Shown piece after piece: positions 16,761 through 31,945 of a stretch of 64,000 nt of DNA. Positions within the stretch are counted from its first letter, which is position 1. Each line of letters begins with the position of its first letter. Source of the stretch: Mesorhizobium denitrificans (GTDB lineage: Bacteria > Pseudomonadota > Alphaproteobacteria > Rhizobiales > Rhizobiaceae); contig NZ_QURN01000001.1 in NCBI RefSeq assembly GCF_003403035.1, positions 434,001-498,000 on the forward strand, written 5' to 3'. The notes under the pieces were generated by a model. It was given only the letters and a program-made list of their open reading frames with translations. It did no database searches and was not told the origin of the DNA. A program made the translations under genes and the position numbers.

Positions 16761-18563
16761 CTAAGATTTATGATGCACTTTCTGCAGCCCATAGACTGGC
16801 GTTGGCAAGCCTTCCATCCGCGCTTTCAGTTGCAGCGCGAGATAGAGCGAATAGTGCCGCGACTGATGCAGATTACCGCCGTGGAACCACAGGCCGTCCT
16901 GCTGGGTCGGCTTCCACATGTTGCGTTGCTCGCCCTCCCACGGTCCCGGATCTTTGGTGGTGTCGGAGCCAAGGCCCCAGCATTTCCCAACCTTGTCCGC
17001 CACTTCTTTTGATATCAGGTCGGCCGCCCAGCCATTCATCGAGCCATAGCCGGTGGCATAGACCACCAGATCAGCGGGCAGGCGCGTCCCGTCTTTCAGG
17101 ATTACCGCGTCTTCGGTCAATTCCTGCACATCAGACCCGCTCTTGAGCTTGATGGACCCGTCAATCACGAGGTCACATGCGCCGACATCGATGTAGTAGC
17201 CGGAGCCGCGCCGCAGATATTTCATGAAAAGGCCGGAGCCATCATCGCCCCAGTCCAGCATGAAGCCTGCTTTTTCCAGATTGGCGTAGAAGTCCTTGTC
17301 GCGCTCCTTCATCTGTTCATAAAGCGGGATCTGGAACTCATGTAGTATCCGGTAGGGAATGGACGCAAAGATCATATCTGCCTTTTGCGTAGTCACGCCG
17401 CTGTTTACAGCCTTTTCGGAATAGAGCGAGCCGAGCCCAATATCCATCAGCGTGTCGGACTTTACGATGTGCGTGGACGAACGCTGCACCATCGTTACAT
17501 CAGCACCCGCCTCCCACAGTGCAGCGCAAATATCGTGCGAGGAGTTGTTGGACCCGATAACGACGACCTTCTTGCCCTTATATTTGTCCGGTCCGGGATG
17601 CGTCGAGGAGTGCTGTTGCTCTCCCTTGAAAACATCCTGCCCCTTGATCTTTGGCCAGTTGGCTTTGCCAGACATGCCTGTCGCCAGCACCAGCTGCTTC
17701 GGCTTCAGGGTAATTTCCTTGCCGTCGCGCTCAACGACGACAGTCCATTCTTTGGTCTTCTCGTCGTAGGTCGCTTTCTTGGCCGTGGTGGAAGCCCAAT
17801 AGTTCAGCTCCATCACCTTGGCATACATTTCCAGCCAGTCGCCGATCTTGTCCTTCGGAGCAAACACCGGCCAGTTCTTCGGAAAATCTATGTAGGGCAG
17901 GTGATCGTACCAGACCGGGTCATGCAGGCAGAGCGACTTGTAGCGCTTGCGCCAGCTATCGCCCGCCCGCTCGTTTTTCTCCACGATGATGGTCGGCACG
18001 CCGAGTTGCTTGAGCCGTGCCGCCAGCGCGATGCCGCCCTGACCGCCACCGATGATAAGCACATAGGGCTGCTTGCTGTGGCCCAGCTGGGCAATTTCCT
18101 CGTCGCGCTCTTCGCGCCACGTCTTGCGGTCCTTGCCGTGTCCGTGTTTCGCGCCGAGCGGGCGCGTATAGCCGGATTTTTCTTCGTGGCCCTTGAGTTC
18201 GGTCAGCGCGGTCAGCAGTGTCCAGATGCGGCCGTCCCTGAGCCGCAGCAGGCCATAGCCGCGACCGGCTTCAGTTTCGAACTGAATCCAGCTTTCAGTA
18301 ATCCCGTTCGCTTCGGTTGCCTCTTCGCCCTCGGCAATCTTCCAGCCGGATGGGGCAATTTTCGCGAGCTGCGCTTTCAGCATGTCGCGTATCTGGTCCT
18401 GGCCTTCCAGCGTTTTGATATTCCAGGTAAACGCGATCAGGTCACGCCAATAAGAATCTGTCTGGAAGCAGCCGACTGCCGCTTCAATGTCTTGCTCAGC
18501 CAGCGCCTTCCCGAATTTCTCCAGGAACGCCGACACCTTTGTGCTGGGCATTTTTTCTAGCAT
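16761..18563 (-). CDS. Flavin-containing monooxygenase-like protein with N-terminal NTF2/SnoaL domain
   Basis: A 600-residue FAD/NAD(P)H oxidoreductase. Residues about 8-125 look like an NTF2/SnoaL-type cone domain. The first Rossmann motif VLIIGGGQGGIALAARL is at 168-184. A second, NADPH-type motif, VVVIGSNNSSHDICAALWEAG, lies near 340. The ATGYGS motif, typical of flavin-containing monooxygenases, is near the C-terminus. Related two-domain proteins are annotated as monooxygenases (YUCCA-like or Baeyer-Villiger-like) with mostly unknown substrates; none can be inferred here. A strong GGAGGAG 5 bases before the ATG at 18563 fixes the start. It lies 93 bases after the aminotransferase gene on the same strand and may share its transcript. 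Confidence 0.85.
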   Translation of the reverse strand: MLEKMPSTKVSAFLEKFGKALAEQDIEAAVGCFQTDSYWRDLIAFTWNIKTLEGQDQIRDMLKAQLAKIAPSGWKIAEGEEATEANGITESWIQFETEAGRGYGLLRLRDGRIWTLLTALTELKGHEEKSGYTRPLGAKHGHGKDRKTWREERDEEIAQLGHSKQPYVLIIGGGQGGIALAARLKQLGVPTIIVEKNERAGDSWRKRYKSLCLHDPVWYDHLPYIDFPKNWPVFAPKDKIGDWLEMYAKVMELNYWASTTAKKATYDEKTKEWTVVVERDGKEITLKPKQLVLATGMSGKANWPKIKGQDVFKGEQQHSSTHPGPDKYKGKKVVVIGSNNSSHDICAALWEAGADVTMVQRSSTHIVKSDTLMDIGLGSLYSEKAVNSGVTTQKADMIFASIPYRILHEFQIPLYEQMKERDKDFYANLEKAGFMLDWGDDGSGLFMKYLRRGSGYYIDVGACDLVIDGSIKLKSGSDVQELTEDAVILKDGTRLPADLVVYATGYGSMNGWAADLISKEVADKVGKCWGLGSDTTKDPGPWEGEQRNMWKPTQQDGLWFHGGNLHQSRHYSLYLALQLKARMEGLPTPVYGLQKVHHKS

Positions 18564-18656: not shown

Positions 18657-20189
18657 TCAGGCAAAAATCCGGGCCACAAAGGCAGCAATTCCAGATTTGC
18701 GCGGCGCTTTTTCGATTGCGCCCACGGGCATCACAGAACCCGGAACGCATTGCGCAGACCGCGTATACTCGTCCTCAAACAGCGGTGCATCTTTGGCCAG
18801 TTGTGCCACGGATTCGATGATGAAATTCACCTTATCATCAGGAAGCAACACGCTGAAATTCAGCCTGGTGAAGCCGGGCTTCTTGATGTCGTCGCCAGCG
18901 AGGATGGCCGCACGAATGTCATCAGACTGTTCTTCGCCAATCGCCAGCAGCCTGTGCGCATAAGGGCCTGCACAAGCGCATCCACCGCGCGCCTGAATGC
19001 CGAACCTGTCGCTCAGCATTTTGGTGACGAGCTGTTGATGAACATAGGCGCCTTTGCCGTTTCGGATACGAAACGAAAATATGGGGAGCCGCTCAGCCAG
19101 CGGAAGTCCCAGCATTTCCATTTGCGGAATGTCCTTCCAGATGGCGAATGCGCGTTGTCGAAACTCGCGGTTCTTCGCCTGCATTTCTTCCAACCCGATC
19201 GCATGCTTGACGATAAAGGCCAGCGCGACACGTATGTCGCCAATCACATTTGGCGTGCCTGCTTCCTCTCTCGCCTCGACATTGTCGAGATAGTCATGCC
19301 AATGCGAGGAAACGAACTTCACCGTGCCACCGCCGGGCCATGAGGGCTTGCCGGTAGCAACACTGTCGCGGCGTACGATCAGCAGCCCGGATGCGCCGGG
19401 GCCGCCTATGAACTTGTGCGGCGAAAGCGCTATCGCATCGATCTCCGCGTCCACGCCCGCAGACATGTTGATCGGCACATATGGACCTGCGCCCGCATAG
19501 TCCCAGACCATCTTTGCGCCGGCAGCTTTCACCATGCGCGTAATGTGGAGCACGTCGCTGCGAATGCCGGTGATGTTCGACGCCGCAGACATCGTGCACA
19601 CCGTCAGATCATAGGACGTATCGCGCAGCGCCTGCTGCAACTGTCCAAGGTCGGGACCACCTTCGGCGGCCTCATCGATCTCGACAACCTGCGCACCACT
19701 TTCCCTCCAGGGCAGAATGTTGGAATGGTGCTCATACGGCCCCACAATAACGCGTACGTTCTTTCCAGCTGCCACAGCCTCGGCAGTGCCAAACAAGGAC
19801 ACAAGCCGGTTGAGGCCGGAGGTTGCGCCTGAACCGGTAAATATCACGGCGTGGTCTGCGCTTGCCCCGCAATAGTCGGCTACCATTGCGCGCGCCTCGC
19901 GACGCAGGCGCGTTACGAATCCTCCGCAATATGAGTCTTCCGTGTGGCTGTTGGCATAGTAGGGCAGAACCTCGTCGAGGATAAAGTTCTCGACTTGCCT
20001 TAGCGCCCGTCCTGAAGCCACATAATCCGCGTAGACCATGTCCTTGCTGCCATAGCGGCCAATCACACGCGCATTCGCTCCGATCAAGCCCGCCCTTAGT
20101 TCTGCAAGCACATCGCCTTGAAGCAGCGTATCGCGAAACCGCGCCAAACTCGTGCTGTTCTCGTGCATATGAACGTTTGTGACTGACAA
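18657..20189 (-). CDS. Class V aminotransferase/cysteine desulfurase-like protein
   Basis: PLP enzyme of the aminotransferase class V (NifS/SufS/isopenicillin epimerase) group, 510 residues. The PLP lysine is in SPHKFIGGPGASG (Lys259). HH in GPYEHHSNILPW is the usual cofactor-contact region. A cysteine pair in RGGCACAGPY (Cys404, Cys406) occupies the position of the desulfurase catalytic loop. The C-terminal ~50 residues add a tail beyond typical SufS length. Function may be cysteine desulfuration or another beta-elimination or aminotransfer; the sequence does not decide. The start is a TTG at 20189 after GGGGGG; an ATG at 20168 is an alternative. It is divergent from the Lrp-family gene, which may control it. 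Confidence 0.82.
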   Translation of the reverse strand: MSVTNVHMHENSTSLARFRDTLLQGDVLAELRAGLIGANARVIGRYGSKDMVYADYVASGRALRQVENFILDEVLPYYANSHTEDSYCGGFVTRLRREARAMVADYCGASADHAVIFTGSGATSGLNRLVSLFGTAEAVAAGKNVRVIVGPYEHHSNILPWRESGAQVVEIDEAAEGGPDLGQLQQALRDTSYDLTVCTMSAASNITGIRSDVLHITRMVKAAGAKMVWDYAGAGPYVPINMSAGVDAEIDAIALSPHKFIGGPGASGLLIVRRDSVATGKPSWPGGGTVKFVSSHWHDYLDNVEAREEAGTPNVIGDIRVALAFIVKHAIGLEEMQAKNREFRQRAFAIWKDIPQMEMLGLPLAERLPIFSFRIRNGKGAYVHQQLVTKMLSDRFGIQARGGCACAGPYAHRLLAIGEEQSDDIRAAILAGDDIKKPGFTRLNFSVLLPDDKVNFIIESVAQLAKDAPLFEDEYTRSAQCVPGSVMPVGAIEKAPRKSGIAAFVARIFA

Positions 20190-20288: not shown

Positions 20289-20771
20289 ATGATCGAAAAA
20301 TCGGAAAAGATTGATGCGTTTGATTTGAAGTTGCTGAATGCCTTGCAAAAGGATTCCGCGCAGTCACAGCGCGAGTTGGCGGACAAGGTTGGATTGTCTC
20401 AAAACGCCTGCTGGCGAAGGCTCCAGCGGCTCCAATCCATCGGCATTATTCAGGGTTCGCGCACGGAACTCGACCTGAGCGCTCTGGGTCTGGATTTGAC
20501 CGTGTTCGTGATGATCCGCACGCGTTCCCATTCGCGCGAATGGAGCGAAGCGTTCAAGACTCATGTGATGAAATTGCCGGAAGTGACCGACTTTTATCGC
20601 ATCGGAGGCGATTGGGATTATCTGATAAAGGTCATAGCCAGAGGCATGTCCGGCTATGACGCGTTCTATCAAAAACTCATTTCGAGCTTCGATCTAGCCG
20701 CTGTTACCGGCTTCTTTTCGATGGAGGCGATTGTCAAAAATCGTCCCCTCGATCTCAACCGCCTGAAGTAG
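20289..20771 (+). CDS. Lrp/AsnC family transcriptional regulator
   Basis: A 160-residue DNA-binding regulator. The N-terminal winged HTH is seen in DAFDLKLLNALQKDSAQSQR and LADKVGLSQNACWRRLQRL. The C-terminal RAM ligand-binding domain includes LPEVTDFYRIGGDWDYLIKV and the Gly-rich loop. ATG at 20289 is preferred to TTG at 20280. Such regulators usually respond to an amino acid and act on a neighbour; the divergent aminotransferase and the palindrome between them are the natural target. Its 3' end overlaps the convergent CPBP protease gene by 17 bases. Confidence 0.9.
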   Translation: MIEKSEKIDAFDLKLLNALQKDSAQSQRELADKVGLSQNACWRRLQRLQSIGIIQGSRTELDLSALGLDLTVFVMIRTRSHSREWSEAFKTHVMKLPEVTDFYRIGGDWDYLIKVIARGMSGYDAFYQKLISSFDLAAVTGFFSMEAIVKNRPLDLNRLK

Positions 20772-21507
20772 TTTCTGCGGGTGGCGTGAGCCACTTGCCG
20801 CCCTCGGTCATCAACCAGCCGACAAGGCCGGTAATCGCGAGCAGGGCCAGCGGCGCAACGACCCAGAATGAAATTTGATCCGATCTGAACGCGGTCGCGG
20901 GCCATACTGTGTCGTTCACAAAATTGAACATGCCGTGCCAGATAACGAGTTCGGCAATCGTCAGCCCAAATCGGCGCAGAGTGCCCAATAAAATGCCGAA
21001 CGCGAAATAGTAGGGAAGCATCGGCAGTCCATTGTTCAAATGCATGAAAGCGAAAAGCGCCGCGCTGGCGAAAATGGCCAGACCAACGCGCTTCTTGAAC
21101 GCTTCAAATGCAATTCCGCGATAGATCAACTCTTCGGGCAGGGCGATGAGGACGATAAAATATATGAACTGCCACGCAATATTCCCGCTTCCGGCAAAAA
21201 TACTGTCCGCGCGAACCGTCAGAAAGACCATCGTCGCGATGGTCAGCACCCACGCGAGCAGGGCCACCGCACTGACCTCACGTTTGACTGCGCGCAACCC
21301 GCCACGCGGCAGCAGGTCAGCCATGAACGCGCTGCCGGCAACCTTTCGATAGACCAACAGCGCCGCAGTTAATTCCACGATGGAAAACGAGTACAACAGC
21401 GCAACGCGCGGTCCCGGTTCCAGCACGTTTGCCCACGCCACAATTGCGACCGTACCGAGTGTTGCAAGCGCGACGAAAAACAGAACGGAAATGCTTTTGC
21501 GTGTCAT
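20755..21507 (-). CDS. CPBP family intramembrane glutamic protease
   Basis: A 250-residue polytopic membrane protein of the CPBP/ABI (Rce1-like) family. Motif 1 is EELIYRG (Glu125-Glu126), motif 2 has His in FAFMHLNNG, and motif 3 is IWHGMFNF. About seven hydrophobic segments are visible. Family members process CAAX proteins in eukaryotes and bacteriocin precursors or immunity functions in some bacteria. Its ATG overlaps the stop of the upstream ABC-fusion gene (ATGA at 21504-21507), so the two are translationally coupled and probably work together. Substrate unknown. Confidence 0.85.
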   Translation of the reverse strand: MTRKSISVLFFVALATLGTVAIVAWANVLEPGPRVALLYSFSIVELTAALLVYRKVAGSAFMADLLPRGGLRAVKREVSAVALLAWVLTIATMVFLTVRADSIFAGSGNIAWQFIYFIVLIALPEELIYRGIAFEAFKKRVGLAIFASAALFAFMHLNNGLPMLPYYFAFGILLGTLRRFGLTIAELVIWHGMFNFVNDTVWPATAFRSDQISFWVVAPLALLAITGLVGWLMTEGGKWLTPPAETTSGG

Positions 21508-24383
21508 TGGAAGCGCTCACGGTTGATCGGTGGTCTCGAAGTCATGCCGTTGGGCGCGGTTTCCATCGGCATTTGCCCGCCTTGTTGCGGCGACAGGGAG
21601 ATAGTGCGGTCGCATAGCGACTGAATCTCCGGCCTGTGCGTCGCCATTATAACGGTCGTTCCAAGGTCACGCAGGCGTTGAAGAATGCGAACGCTCTGCT
21701 CCAGCGATAGATGTGTGAAAGCCTCGTCGAATATCAGGCATTCACCACTGCGATAGAGCGCCTGAGCAAGCATGAGGCGCTGGATTTCGCCGCGGCTAAG
21801 CCCTTGCTTTTCAAGGCGTTCGGAACCGTCACCGTCGACAAAGAAGCCGAGCCGCTCCCAAAGTTCCACGAACTTCAGCACATAGACCAGCCGCGGAATG
21901 TCGATCTCGCGTCCGCTGGCAACGAACGCCGCGAGCGGGCCTTCTACAAACTCGTCATCCGCGACAACGAAGCCGGCAGAAATGGGGCCAGTTACGGCAA
22001 TTCCTTCGAAATAGACGCCACCTGCGATCGGACGCCGCAAACCGGCGAGCAAATCGAGCAAAGTGCTTTTGCCTGCGCCGCTCTCACCGAGAACGTTGAC
22101 GACCTCGCGTCTTTTGATAGCGAAGTTGAGATTTGCAAACAGATCAGCATCAAGGCCATTGTAGCCGAAGCTCAGCCGGTCCGCGATCAGCATATCCGCG
22201 CCTCTGTGCTCAATCGGCTGCTCTGGCAGAATGATCTGGTTTTCAGCTAACCCTTCGTCGCGATCGACCTCGTGCACTACTTCGGCCACGCGACGCACCA
22301 CCGGCCCCAAGGCACGGTATTTCTGGAATGTGTCGGACAATTCGGTCAGCTGTGTTGACAGGACCAGTCCCAGCGCCGTCGCCAGCATGAAACCGCCATA
22401 GGTCAGTTGACCGGCAATCATCAGATAAGCTCCGGCAAATGCAGCGAGCGGTTGGGAGGAAGTGTCAATCGCGCGTTGGAAGGCGCGGAACGTGATAAAC
22501 CGGCGCTCATAATTTGCCCGTGCGGTCTGCCAGCGGCTGATGCCGGGCAGGCAGGTTGTCAGCAGGTGGTCTTGCAGACCTGCCGCGAAGAAACGCAGGA
22601 ACCCGCCCGCTCTCTGCGCTTGAAGCGCGCGGTTGCGATCCCCCTCATCTCTGATCTTGAGTTCAAGCTCATGCGTTCGTTTGGAGACCACATACATCCA
22701 GCCAATAATCGCCACGCGCGGGATGATTAGCAGAATCGCGATAATTGGCGCGATCAAGAAGAGCGCAGCAGTGGACGCAACGGCGATTATCGCCTGCGGC
22801 ACGACGGAGTGATGCGCACGCAAGGACAGCCGCAGGCATTGATCAAGATCTTTTAGCCGGCCAAACAGCTCGCCTGCAAAATGCGCATCGAAAAACACCG
22901 TTGGACGAGCATAGAGCCGATCAAGAAACGCCCGCTTTATTTTCAATGTGGTGTCCAGCGACTGGCTCTCAAGGCGTAGCGATTGCAGATGGCGAAGACC
23001 CAATCGCACCGCGAGAACCGGCAACCCTGCCCAGGCAAGCGCATAGCCGTTGGTGTCGGTCGAAACGGTGAGTTGGTATGTTCCGGTGCTTGAGCTGTAG
23101 CCGGCAGCAGCAATGTAATAAGTATCGTTGCGCTGCGGCGTGAAGAAGACCATCGAGTCGACCGTGCCATTGCTGTCATCATTCATGGCTCGTCCAACGC
23201 CATCCGGCCTGACATTGCCGAAAATGTCGACGGGGTTGGGCGATGAGTCATAGATCGCCCACAGATAGGGGTCCGTCAGCGTGCCGCGTCCGGTCGGCGC
23301 CCCACGCAGGTCGATGCGGTATGTCGTTCCGGCTGAAAGCGTAACCGCGTACCAATCCCTGTCACCGGAGGTGCTTATGGTGCCCTTCGCCATACCGTTG
23401 ATCGCGACCGAGCCAATCCGCTCGTTTCGCGCTGAAGTGATATCGGATGCGAAATCTCCCCCGACCTCGACGGACGGCAAAAGCGGCTCGGTATATGCGT
23501 TGTTGACGACCTGTAGCTGATAGGTACCCGTGCCCGCCGAATATGCGCCCGCGGCTATATAGTATGTGCCCGAGTTCGTTGGCGTGAAGACAATGCGCGA
23601 CTCCAGCCCGATGGCGTCGTCATTTGCCAGGCCCATCGAGGCCCCATTGGCGCTGACGATGCCGTGGATCATGGGATCGTTCAGCGTGCCGCGTCCTGAC
23701 CCCGAGCCGCGCAGGTCGATCCTGTATGGCACTCCGGCATTCAGCATCACCGCGAACCAGTCCTGATCGCCCGCCTTTTCAATCGAGCCGGTCGCGGCGG
23801 CGTTTGCGTTCAGAAACCCGATATTGCCTGCCTGTGCATCCTTGATGGACGCGCCGAAATCGTAACCACCCGAAGGCATACCGTTGAACAACAGTTCGGC
23901 ACTCGAAATTTCGCGGTCTTCAAATTCATCTTCATCGGCCAGAACATCGTCGGCCATCTCGAGCAGAAGTCCGCGGCAGAAAGCCAGCATAACCTCAGGC
24001 GCAATTTCCAGATCGGCGCTCTGTTCATTCGTGACCGCGTCCGTTGGCAAACCGCACAGCGTCACGACGCGCCGGCTCATAGAAATCAACGTATATTCGC
24101 CGACCCCGGTGATGCGAATGCTGAACGAACCGCCCAGCCCTTCCAGCCAGCCGGCATCGTAGCTGACCGGCAGCATCTCTTGCATGATTGCGCCAAACAA
24201 CAAGGACGGCGCATTCAGCGCCGGCATCTTTTCCCAACGATCATTGAGCAGAAAATTTTCATCCACCCGCAGGCCGCCCGCAAACTTTCGGAACATCACC
24301 GGGTTTGAAATACGGCTCGCATCCAACGCACAAACGTCATCAACGCTTAGCGCCACATTCGCGACGCTGTCCAAAATCAGCAT
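21504..24383 (-). CDS. Chimeric protein: unknown N-domain, two PPC domains, truncated ABC exporter
   Basis: 959 residues from the ATG at 24383 (GGGGA upstream; a TTG at 24395 is less likely). Residues 1-145 are an unrecognised domain ending in an acidic stretch near 143-158. Residues about 197-293 and 333-441 are two bacterial pre-peptidase C-terminal (PPC) beta domains, each with a GDxDW(F/Y)AV strand, YRIDLRG, and a GTYQL end. From about 445 the sequence is a type I ABC exporter: weak TM2 end, four clear helices (about 528-566 and 645-676), Walker A GESGAGKST (766-774), signature LSRGE instead of LSGGQ, Walker B CLIFDEAF, and switch His in ATHRPE. TM1, most of TM2 and any C39 peptidase are missing. 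The NBD resembles CvaB/colicin V exporters. It could be a deletion fusion of a secreted PPC protein with its exporter. Activity is uncertain. Confidence 0.8.
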   Translation of the reverse strand: MLILDSVANVALSVDDVCALDASRISNPVMFRKFAGGLRVDENFLLNDRWEKMPALNAPSLLFGAIMQEMLPVSYDAGWLEGLGGSFSIRITGVGEYTLISMSRRVVTLCGLPTDAVTNEQSADLEIAPEVMLAFCRGLLLEMADDVLADEDEFEDREISSAELLFNGMPSGGYDFGASIKDAQAGNIGFLNANAAATGSIEKAGDQDWFAVMLNAGVPYRIDLRGSGSGRGTLNDPMIHGIVSANGASMGLANDDAIGLESRIVFTPTNSGTYYIAAGAYSAGTGTYQLQVVNNAYTEPLLPSVEVGGDFASDITSARNERIGSVAINGMAKGTISTSGDRDWYAVTLSAGTTYRIDLRGAPTGRGTLTDPYLWAIYDSSPNPVDIFGNVRPDGVGRAMNDDSNGTVDSMVFFTPQRNDTYYIAAAGYSSSTGTYQLTVSTDTNGYALAWAGLPVLAVRLGLRHLQSLRLESQSLDTTLKIKRAFLDRLYARPTVFFDAHFAGELFGRLKDLDQCLRLSLRAHHSVVPQAIIAVASTAALFLIAPIIAILLIIPRVAIIGWMYVVSKRTHELELKIRDEGDRNRALQAQRAGGFLRFFAAGLQDHLLTTCLPGISRWQTARANYERRFITFRAFQRAIDTSSQPLAAFAGAYLMIAGQLTYGGFMLATALGLVLSTQLTELSDTFQKYRALGPVVRRVAEVVHEVDRDEGLAENQIILPEQPIEHRGADMLIADRLSFGYNGLDADLFANLNFAIKRREVVNVLGESGAGKSTLLDLLAGLRRPIAGGVYFEGIAVTGPISAGFVVADDEFVEGPLAAFVASGREIDIPRLVYVLKFVELWERLGFFVDGDGSERLEKQGLSRGEIQRLMLAQALYRSGECLIFDEAFTHLSLEQSVRILQRLRDLGTTVIMATHRPEIQSLCDRTISLSPQQGGQMPMETAPNGMTSRPPINRERFQ

Positions 24384-24513
24384 AGTTTTCCCCAAGAACT
24401 CGACCGCCCCGTGGTCGTTTATGCTTGGAAATTCTCAGGGTGCCTCAAACACTTTGAGAAACTTCAGAAGCATTAGGGAAATCTAATAGCTATGCTGTGT
24501 GAACCTTTGATGT

Positions 24514-29534: not shown

Positions 29535-29938
29535 ATAGCTGAAATTTCAGATTTTTTGACGCGAACTGAGTGCCCTTCAAATGCGCCGTATAACCCTCGA
29601 TCAAGCTGGATCGCGGGTGGTGTCTGCCAGTCCATTTCCTGCGCAACAATCAAGCCGAGCAGCAAGATCGCATCCGGCTCGTGTAGCACCATCGCCGCCG
29701 GCGCATGGCCGTTACGCACCAGTTCCATCAGCACGGCCGAGGCTGAGGACGACCCGATCGTGCCCGGTAAAAACAGCACGGTTCCAGCAATATTCACACC
29801 GCATTGCGGATGGCGCACGTCGGCTATCCGCCCGCTTTTCGGATCGACGCCGCCCCAGAAACTGATCGGCTGACTAAGCACGAGCGCCGGACCGCTCGCG
29901 TCAGCACCTTCCACCAATATCTTGCCGCTATGCATCAT
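29531..29938 (-). CDS. Aconitase X swivel-domain (small) subunit
   Basis: 135 residues of the AcnX swivel family (DUF126), starting MMHSGKILVEGADASGPALV, with PISFWGGVDPKSGRI, GTVLFLPGTIGSSSAS and PDAILLLGLIVAQEM. It forms a heterodimer with the large subunit encoded immediately upstream (ATGA overlap at 29935-29938). Bacterial AcnX enzymes with split subunits have been shown to be cis-3-hydroxy-L-proline dehydratases; that role is inferred here. Confidence 0.88.
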   Translation of the reverse strand: MMHSGKILVEGADASGPALVLSQPISFWGGVDPKSGRIADVRHPQCGVNIAGTVLFLPGTIGSSSASAVLMELVRNGHAPAAMVLHEPDAILLLGLIVAQEMDWQTPPAIQLDRGLYGAFEGHSVRVKKSEISAI

Positions 29939-31185
29939 GCGCCGAACCTCGGTCTGCCGCTGACAGCGCTTTCGACACAGTCGGCCATCGATCCATAAAG
30001 CACCGCATAGCCAGTATTTCCGGGCGCATAATGTGCGAATTTCCCGGAATTCGTCATCAACACACCGCCGGGCATATCAGCCATGATCGGCGTTACCACC
30101 ACACACGTATCCGCCACAACCGTGATGCCCTGCGCTTCCAGCGTCACGCGGCCTCCGTCGCGGTCGAGTTCGCTCAGCACATGCCTGCCCGTACACGCGT
30201 AAAACGGCACAGCTACCCGCCGTCCGGCCAGCAATTTCCGTAGCCGCGCGAACTCCTCCACCGACAAATGCGGACTGCCGATAGCAACCGCGTCGATCCG
30301 GTCCGTTCGCTCTGCGGTCGAAAGGCGAGCCTGCGCGTCCCGCACCATCTGGCCTGTCACGACAATCCGCTCCGCCGGTTCGGCCCCGCGCAGCACCCTC
30401 GCCAAATCCGGCGCTTCGGGCGTTATGCCCTCCATGTGGAACAGCCCAACCGAACCGGAAGAAGCCGCCGCAGCGCCGAATGCTTTCAGCGCATCCTCGC
30501 CCGGATGCTTGCCGATCCCCGCCACCACGCCGATTTCCGTACCGGCCAAGCGTCCAAAAAGGCTTCCCAGAACCGGCCACGCGATTTCGGATTCCAGAAA
30601 CGCGCGGTCCAGCCCAGAAACGTCAAAAACAAAGCGGGCCAGCCGGTTTTCGCTTCGATGCAGCCCGTAATCCGGCGCGCGACCGCTTATAGCGCAGGCA
30701 ATATCGAGAAAATCGCCATAGCGATTGGTGCGCGCGCCGAGCACGGAATTGCAGAAAACCACGGCGTTGGATTCGCCCCACGCAACATCGCTGCCAAGCG
30801 CTGGACGATGCCCGCTTTGATAGGGCGCGCATGTCCAACTAGGCTCACAGCCAAGATCGAGATAGGCGTGCATCATGCGTTGCGCCATCTCGCGCTCGTG
30901 TCCGACCAGCCGCACGCGCGCGCATCCGGTCAGGTCCAGCGCGCCGACATTCAGCGTCGCGCGTACGGCGGTTTTCGCACCGCCTTCGACCAGCTTTTCC
31001 GCAAACAATGTGCCGGAATCGCCGTGATAAAGCGCGCCATCGATATGCGCGGATTGCACCGGAATAAGCCGCGGCGCTCCCAGCAGCCGCGCCGATTCCA
31101 CCACGATGCGCATGGCCATTGCCGCGCCGGCTCCGGTGTCGCCTGCCAGCGTTGACCGCTCCTGCGCCGATAATTCGAGGCTCAC
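29935..31185 (-). CDS. Aconitase X catalytic (large) subunit, probable cis-3-hydroxy-L-proline dehydratase
   Basis: 416 residues from a GTG at 31185. I prefer this start because AGAGG lies just before it and it begins 4 bases after the moeB stop; the longer frame to 31236 would add a poor leader and overlap moeB by 47 bases. AcnX family (DUF521) hallmarks are WTCAPYQSGHRPALGSDVAW, ESNAVVFCNSVLGARTNR, GRAPDYGLH and the C-terminal TNSGKFAHYAPG. With the small subunit it likely dehydrates cis-3-hydroxy-L-proline to delta1-pyrroline-2-carboxylate. A trans-3-hydroxyproline dehydratase lies 20 kb away. No transporter or reductase for the pathway is adjacent. Confidence 0.86.
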   Translation of the reverse strand: MSLELSAQERSTLAGDTGAGAAMAMRIVVESARLLGAPRLIPVQSAHIDGALYHGDSGTLFAEKLVEGGAKTAVRATLNVGALDLTGCARVRLVGHEREMAQRMMHAYLDLGCEPSWTCAPYQSGHRPALGSDVAWGESNAVVFCNSVLGARTNRYGDFLDIACAISGRAPDYGLHRSENRLARFVFDVSGLDRAFLESEIAWPVLGSLFGRLAGTEIGVVAGIGKHPGEDALKAFGAAAASSGSVGLFHMEGITPEAPDLARVLRGAEPAERIVVTGQMVRDAQARLSTAERTDRIDAVAIGSPHLSVEEFARLRKLLAGRRVAVPFYACTGRHVLSELDRDGGRVTLEAQGITVVADTCVVVTPIMADMPGGVLMTNSGKFAHYAPGNTGYAVLYGSMADCVESAVSGRPRFGA

Positions 31186-31189
31186 GCCG

Positions 31190-31945
31190 TCACCTCTTGT
31201 AGCGCATGGTGTCGAACCGCGCGGCCAGCCCGTCATAGAGCAGCAACCGCCCGACCAGCGGCTCGCCTATGCCGGTAATCAGCTTGATCACTTCCATCGC
31301 CTGCAGGGTTCCCATCACGCCCGTCAGCGCGCCAATGACGCCCGCCTCGGCACAGGATGGCACCAACCCGTCAGGCGGCGGCTCAGGAAACAGGTCGCGA
31401 TAGCGCGGGTTCTGCCTGCCCTCATCATCCACCCCAAACGGCATCAGCACCGTCAGCGAGCCGTCAAACCGCCCCACCGCTGCATGAACCAGCGGCTTTT
31501 TCTCTGCTTCGCATGCATCCGCCAATGCAAACCGCGTTTCAAAATTGTCGGATCCATCCACGACAATATCGTAGCCGATAACCAAACCTGCGGCATTTTC
31601 TGCGCTCAATCTGACTTTATGTAGTTCAACGCTTACATTTGGATTTGTGCGCACAATCGATGCTTTTGCGCTTTCGCCTTTTGGCAGTCCGAGCGCGCCT
31701 GTCTCGTGGATAATCTGCCGCTGAAGGTTGGAAAGCGAAACTGTGTCGTCCTCGACAATACCGAGCGTTCCAACCCCTGCCGCCGCCAGATATTGCAGCA
31801 CCGGCGCACCTAGCCCGCCCGCACCAATCACCAATACACGCGCCTGTTTCAGCTTTTGCTGTCCCGTGCCTCCGATTTCCGGCAGCACGATATGCCGCGC
31901 ATAGCGTTCAATCTCACTATCGGAAAGCGGCGGCATCGTTGTCAT
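31190..31945 (-). CDS. moeB: Molybdopterin-synthase adenylyltransferase MoeB (ThiF/HesA family)
   Basis: E1-like enzyme that adenylates the C-terminus of MoaD (or ThiS) for sulfur transfer. 251 residues: RYARHIVLPEIGGTGQQKL, nucleotide-binding VLVIGAGGLGAPVLQYLAAAG, then LSNLQRQIIHETGALGLPKG, and DGSDNFETRFALADAC. PSCAEAGVIGALTGVMG follows. The Zn-binding cysteine pairs of MoeB are incomplete by eye (single Cys in PSCAE, none in the tail), so it may be a zinc-free variant. It is followed by the AcnX genes 4 bases later. Confidence 0.88.
   Translation of the reverse strand: MTTMPPLSDSEIERYARHIVLPEIGGTGQQKLKQARVLVIGAGGLGAPVLQYLAAAGVGTLGIVEDDTVSLSNLQRQIIHETGALGLPKGESAKASIVRTNPNVSVELHKVRLSAENAAGLVIGYDIVVDGSDNFETRFALADACEAEKKPLVHAAVGRFDGSLTVLMPFGVDDEGRQNPRYRDLFPEPPPDGLVPSCAEAGVIGALTGVMGTLQAMEVIKLITGIGEPLVGRLLLYDGLAARFDTMRYKR

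Follow-up and report, generated by a model that had tools for sequence, protein, structure and literature searches.

A single open reading frame joins a putative leader domain, two PPC domains and a truncated ABC exporter in Mesorhizobium denitrificans

Architecture of the fusion gene

The window, a 64,000-nucleotide stretch of the Mesorhizobium denitrificans genome, contains a gene in which an N-domain of 172 residues and two PPC domains are followed by TM2-TM6 and the NBD of an ABC exporter (Table 1). An initial annotation of this DNA had proposed the order N-domain, two PPC domains and truncated ABC exporter, and both Pfam searches and alignment to the intact exporter of a congener (G001) bear this out. 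The frame is indeed single and unbroken; it runs on the minus strand, which had not been given, for 963 codons from a TTG. The alternative start is an ATG whose first base is the end coordinate originally reported, giving 959 codons. Coding of 21504-24380 on the plus strand is ruled out by 15 stops. At its 3' end, the stop of the fusion overlaps the start of a gene for a CPBP (Rce1-like) intramembrane protease by 4 bp. The fusion is present once in the genome (G000), a 4.38-Mb assembly of 45 contigs with 99.75% completeness, where it sits on a 534-kb contig.

Table 1. Features of the fusion locus (positions within the window)
Feature	Position	Strand	Remarks
Fusion ORF	21504..24395	-	TTG at 24395; alternative ATG at 24383
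N-domain, putative leader domain	23868..24383	-	172 residues; otherwise only in three G001 ORFs
GMPSG motif closing the conserved leader	23868..23882	-	Putative double-glycine-like processing site; candidate role
PPC domain 1	23553..23768	-	Pfam PF04151
PPC domain 2	23106..23363	-	Pfam PF04151
Join, PPC 2 end to start of exporter homology	23049..23063	-	Residues 445-449
Exporter membrane part, helices equivalent to TM2-TM6	22311..23048	-	TM1 and C39 peptidase absent; alignment to G001, model
NBD	21594..22181	-	Walker A, Walker B Glu and H-loop His intact; Q-loop Gln, signature Gly and D-loop Asp substituted, in common with G001
CPBP (Rce1-like) intramembrane protease gene	20755..21507	-	4-bp overlap with fusion stop; G001 exporter likewise followed by CPBP gene

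The whole fusion protein scores 32.2 bits against PF04151, above the curated cut-off of 25.9, with two matching stretches as its likeness to bacterial PPC proteins; scored singly in the genome search, the stretches reach 23.1 and 23.2, both under the cut-off. Matches to PF04151 are found in 3 of 14 control genomes. The initial annotation described PPC domains as normally found in secreted proteases or RTX-like proteins; here the PPC part belongs instead to the leader-passenger family described below. The fusion further differs from bacterial PPC proteins in having no protease domain, its PPC domains being instead the passenger of a putative leader and abutting an ABC membrane domain.

The exporter part and its intact relative

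Pfam assigns residues 446-680 to ABC_membrane, with the profile beginning only at position 38 (29.9 versus a cut-off of 28), and residues 754-893 to ABC_tran. In the alignment, homology to the intact G001 exporter starts at G450, and the join falls within the range of 23030-23070 proposed initially. The absence of the peptidase region and TM1 was also correctly recognised: Pfam detects no C39 domain, and TM1 is missing by alignment to G001. The exporter part does not, however, start near the end of TM2 but at its beginning. Structure modelling, proposed in the initial annotation as a check, was done with AlphaFold2; the model of the full fusion (mean pLDDT 65.4, pTM 0.35), in which the N-domain is poor, was used solely for secondary structure at and after the join. 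It places, with modest confidence, a helix at residues 446-491 (959-residue numbering) right after the last PPC strand (434-442), so that TM2 would be the first membrane helix, followed by helices 503-544, 546-600, 604-656 and 662-691 and then the NBD. TM2 looks less hydrophobic in the fusion than in G001: no window of the fusion is at or above 1.3, and the best among windows sampled every third residue is 0.94, versus 1.54 in G001.

The initial label "CvaB-like" is imprecise, since among NCBIfam models the intact G001 exporter scores best against that of the NHLP exporters (TIGR03796/NHLM_micro_ABC1, within the PCATs). As in these exporters, the G001 relative has a C39 domain, TMD and NBD, matching positions 2-662 of the 689 in the model. 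Both proteins nevertheless remain under the curated cut-off of 853.3, the G001 exporter scoring 292.7 bits and the fusion 126.3. The fusion departs further from TIGR03796 and the PCATs in that it has no C39 domain or TM1, and so not six TM helices, and in its non-canonical Q-loop, signature and D-loop. The part of PMC6959990 drawn on here describes the cytosolic peptidase domain of PCATs as binding the substrate via its leader; this leader-binding domain is the one missing from the fusion. No other C39 domain of this exporter type was found in the G000 assembly by a C39 search. The sole C39-family match there is to a type I exporter that is also represented in G001 and G002 (the second congener compared); read by eye, its N-terminus lacks the catalytic Cys. 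PF03412 matches occur in 8 of 14 control genomes.

Within the NBD, alignment shows that the Walker A Lys, the Walker B Glu and the H-loop His are kept. The LSRGE signature and the replaced Q-loop Gln noticed initially are both present, with A812 in place of the Q-loop Gln, R868 in place of the second Gly of LSGGQ/E and, in addition, S897 in place of the D-loop Asp. The intact G001 exporter has identical residues in all three motifs, and the same residues are found in the two ORFs of a frame-broken relative in a further genome (G358). Since they are common to G000 and G001, the deviations are ancestral and belong to this exporter lineage. Decay of the NBD after the fusion is ruled out as their source, they carry no information on whether such decay took place, and their inclusion in the fusion event, as had been supposed, is not supported.

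A 172-residue N-domain in front of differing passengers

The N-domain, described initially as unrecognised, has four copies: that of the fusion and three in other G001 ORFs, on contigs C5, C2 and C10. None of the four matches a Pfam or NCBIfam family at E ≤ 10, a search in which HMMER filters discard the majority of matches with E over about 0.1. Of 72 PDB matches to a modest fold model (mean pLDDT 67.6), not one reaches E ≤ 0.001. Cut at GMPxG, with which they all end, the copies are each exactly 172 residues long and share 44-53% pairwise identity; closest to the fusion N-domain is the C2 copy, with 53% over 172 residues versus 49% for the other two. After GMPxG the passengers differ. PPC domains follow in the fusion and the C5 protein, and the C2 and C10 passengers have no BLAST match to any other passenger at E ≤ 1e-3. 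No second copy of the N-domain was found in the G000 genome.

A constant front that ends in a glycine motif, joined to a variable rest, is also the layout of NHLP leaders, and for this reason the N-domain looks like an export leader. GMPxG is conserved, and a C39 peptidase may cleave after it. PMC2887384 describes NHLP precursors as having long glycine-motif leaders and being partly encoded apart from their exporter, and NHLP and Nif11 leaders as conserved up to the glycine motif, with a hypervariable part next. The putative substrates of G001 resemble the former in that their leaders are long and close with a glycine motif and in that some of their genes lie apart from the exporter, and the N-domain resembles NHLP and Nif11 leaders (TIGR03793, TIGR03798) in being long and in having its conservation end at the glycine motif. 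It differs from them in that none of the four copies matches a curated leader model, in that its passengers are large proteins, and in its length, 172 residues compared to average positions of 83 and 70 for NHLP and Nif11 leaders in PMC2887384. Upstream of GMPxG, EISxxEL-like residues are present, at an unusual spacing to the glycine that we count against our preferred reading (below). This leader-domain family, which matches nothing in the libraries searched, is together with its exporter the more novel outcome of the analysis; among the genomes searched it is seen in one genus only.

The fusion is confined to one genome among those searched

A full-protein search of 394 genomes of the family gave matches in 47 at E ≤ 1e-20, with only G001 and G358 reaching 60% identity in the ABC part. 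Two candidates were scored per genome, by which N-domains may be missed, and the search was repeated with an N-domain alignment; this matched 2 of the 394 family genomes (G000 and G001) and 1 of 385 genomes of the class (G000 itself). With the ABC part and four candidates scored per genome, 2 of the 385 class genomes matched at E ≤ 1e-26, namely G000 and one at 29% identity. The intact exporter as a query matched 45 of 397 genomes of the order at E ≤ 1e-32 (two candidates scored per genome), and among the matches listed all except G000 are at 23-30% identity. Although 4333 plasmid records match the fusion, all do so with less than 60% identity, none covers 80% of the query, and the best 30 of the 4333 all lie within residues 441-961, the ABC part. 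A genome-contig search added two loci with 27% identity to the ABC part only, and 113 pattern stretches in viral contigs include no relative. Many homologues with the same full-length architecture, which the initial annotation named as evidence against a recent fusion, were not found; across the family genomes, plasmids and genome contigs, an end-to-end match is limited to G000. Among the titles and abstract openings listed from an open-licence library, none reports a substrate-exporter fusion.

PADLOC matches to the exporters fall in the ATPase part. A HlyD partner was sought with TIGR03794, which gave matches in 3 of 3 genomes, none above the cut-off, as well as in 12 of 14 control genomes; this candidate was rejected as unspecific, the only matches beside the locus being weak ones within the BCKDH E2 genes of G000 (448085 on C1) and G001.

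The locus in two congeners

Two other genomes of the genus, G001 and G002, were compared with G000 by BLASTN and ORF maps. The G000 order is fabI, fusion, CPBP gene, aminotransferase, FMO and BCKDH E1-alpha. In G001, the exporter ORF has 62% identity over fusion residues 447-951, carries a C39 domain in front (85.4 bits), and has hydrophobic stretches for both TM1 and TM2. This ORF, CPBP and BCKDH E1-alpha stand at the start of contig C8, and the end of contig C2 carries fabI, a PPC gene, two ORFs with no Pfam or NCBIfam match, and an N-domain gene. The place of the single G000 gene is thus taken in G001 by a cluster, with putative substrates first and the exporter last. The initial annotation had suggested looking for genomes with the parts in separate neighbouring genes; in G001 the N-domain proteins and the C39 exporter are apparently encoded separately at this shared locus, although a contig gap lies in between. 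The two contig ends do not overlap, the N-domain ORF being open at the C2 end and the exporter ORF at the C8 start, so that adjacency of substrate and exporter genes in G001 is what we infer across the gap. The G001 N-domain gene at the fabI locus has no PPC domain, which we count against the preferred reading. Opposite the catalytic Cys, the sequence of the G001 exporter reads Asp, at the first complete codon of C8, making cleavage uncertain even in the parent system. In G002, fabI is followed about 200 bp on by FMO and then BCKDH E1-alpha, and no secretion gene lies between fabI and BCKDH.

Constraint and age

Between G000 and G001 the ABC part has a pN of 0.26 and a pS of 0.76, with synonymous sites saturated, and dS in flanking genes is 1.39 for fabI, 1.38 for E1-alpha and 1.16 for E2. 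Among the four neighbours compared, the CPBP genes show the lowest conservation (47% identity, pN 0.39, dS 2.45). Under neutrality and ignoring indels, the probability that the fusion ORF acquires no stop is 0.197 at 2% divergence and 0.019 at 5%. As a neutral ORF of this length soon closes and the frame is still open, the fusion should be either young relative to the species split or under selection.

To compare the two exporters, conserved columns of the ABC part were counted against 12 outgroups, whose ORFs were chosen by BLAST. Conservation in at least 80% of the outgroups is seen at 71 columns, of which both proteins keep 40, G000 alone 1, G001 alone 0, and neither 30. At the 50% threshold, with 244 columns, the counts are 72 for both, 11 for G000 only, 15 for G001 only and 146 for neither, which we count slightly against the preferred reading. 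The summed BLOSUM difference to the outgroups, G000 versus G001, is -35.0 (bootstrap about -79 to +8); it is not significant and gives a weak hint that G000 may be more diverged from the outgroups than G001.

Origin and present state of the fusion

We propose, with a probability of roughly 65%, that an in-frame deletion joined a leader-PPC substrate gene to an exporter gene, and that the product is probably a defective young remnant. In the ancestral locus, a substrate gene encoding the 172-residue leader, GMPxG and a variable, PPC-containing passenger would have preceded, in the same orientation, an exporter gene for a C39-type peptidase, six TM helices and an NBD, with the CPBP protease gene next. 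By analogy with PCAT and NHLP systems, the leader in this parent system would hand the passenger to the C39 domain of the exporter, with a possible cut after GMPxG during translocation. The deletion would have taken the 3' end of the substrate gene as well as the 5' part of the exporter gene, which codes for the peptidase and TM1, such that the PPC passenger leads straight into TM2. Such a product should be unable to work as a normal peptidase exporter; the fusion is probably a broken exporter whose present function is most likely lost, a young remnant whose frame would not yet have decayed. The deletion-fusion origin is well supported, its weak point being the contig gap in G001. Of the initial reading, the option that a deletion fused a secreted substrate to its exporter is supported, given the parts that appear to lie apart in G001; the inclusion of the altered motifs in that event does not.

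Persistence under selection is an unlikely alternative, in which the ABC part would serve as an anchor or regulated tether, holding the leader-PPC part permanently in the periplasm. With TM1 gone, the five helices left and a cytosolic NBD would make the N-terminus and PPC part face the periplasm, and a membrane-anchored PPC protein is thus possible. The modelled position of the join, between the last PPC strand and TM2 with both domains looking complete (modest confidence), fits such a protein, as do the frame open over 963 codons, the preserved overlap with the CPBP gene, and the retention by G000 of every one of the 40 columns kept by G001 at the 80% threshold. The low pN relative to pS in the ABC part points the same way, but it covers all time since the split and cannot date selection to the period after the fusion. 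Against a tethered protein speak the lack of a signal peptide evident by eye, the approximately 440 residues that would need to cross the membrane, the apparently lower hydrophobicity of TM2, and the absence of a second species with the fusion among the genomes searched. Unlikely too is a broader version, in which a system private to the genus would use a folded leader of fixed length, 172 residues, to deliver unrelated large passengers to a C39 exporter with a degenerate NBD, and the window species would have a merged, working protein that holds the PPC domains in the periplasm.

It is improbable that the fused order is the older one, i.e., that the genus had one leader-passenger-C39-TMD-NBD gene of which G000 lost only the middle. 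While the G001 N-domain and exporter ORFs are both open into the contig gap, as this would predict, an exporter ORF cut near the expected position of the catalytic Cys would be open at that end anyway, and 2 of the 3 G001 N-domain genes (C5 and C10) are closed by a stop codon and have no exporter in the short flanking stretches that were read. A wrong joining of two separate G000 genes during assembly is very improbable, considering that the join DNA is unique within the genome and lies approximately 76 kb from the nearer contig end, that the highly complete assembly has no second C39 domain of this type, that the frame is kept across the join, and that both flanks are syntenic with G002.

Implications

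The fusion offers a natural test of the requirements of an ABC exporter, this one having lost its peptidase and TM1 and being covalently attached to its substrate. It also led to a family of leader domains, with 172 residues, a GMPxG end and differing passengers, and to an exporter with unusual ATPase motifs. If the fusion protein is made and inserted, it would show how operon collapse can yield a new membrane-anchored protein; if the fusion is dead, as our preferred reading has it, it would be the loss of a secretion system, freshly caught.

Relatives of the exporter

Like the ABC exporter of the fusion, a relative in another genus (genome G358) has RGE in its signature, ADDE in its Q-loop and Ser in its D-loop. 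Pieces of its NBD are carried in two frames, and the gene looks broken. In the exporter of G001, another genome of the same genus as the window species, the codon at the C39 position that aligns with the catalytic Cys reads Asp (L009:2-4, contig C8). Because this codon is the first whole one of the contig, the Asp reading may be an assembly-end error.

Neighbouring genes and PPC proteins

The class V aminotransferase gene had no BLASTN match in the stretches compared from G001 (L044, L045) and from G002 (L050), a further genome of the genus. For the FMO-like gene, whose product has a weak SnoaL_2-like stretch at its N-terminus, BLASTN likewise gave no match in L044 and L045; the gene is also present at the equivalent locus in G002.

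Coordinates of exporter relative, PPC-related and neighbouring genes
Feature	Position	Remark
FMO-like protein gene	window 16761-18563	
Class V aminotransferase gene	window 18657-20189	between CPBP and FMO in the window genome (G000)
Aconitase X (AcnX) gene	window 29935-31236	in the neighbourhood
PPC protein gene	L013:1456-2514 (G001:C2)	adjoins fabI
Exporter relative	L055:9591-10733 (G358:C12)	other genus
Three tandem ORFs	L082:957-4306 (G001:C27)	

The PPC protein encoded beside fabI in G001 contains 19 Cys in 352 residues, and many repeated Cys-Gly steps were observed in its C-terminal part. The proteins of the three tandem ORFs have Tyr/Pro-rich stretches and lack the N-domain (the putative leader of the fusion); one of them gave a PPC match below the cut-off. 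These ORFs possibly constitute another secreted set.
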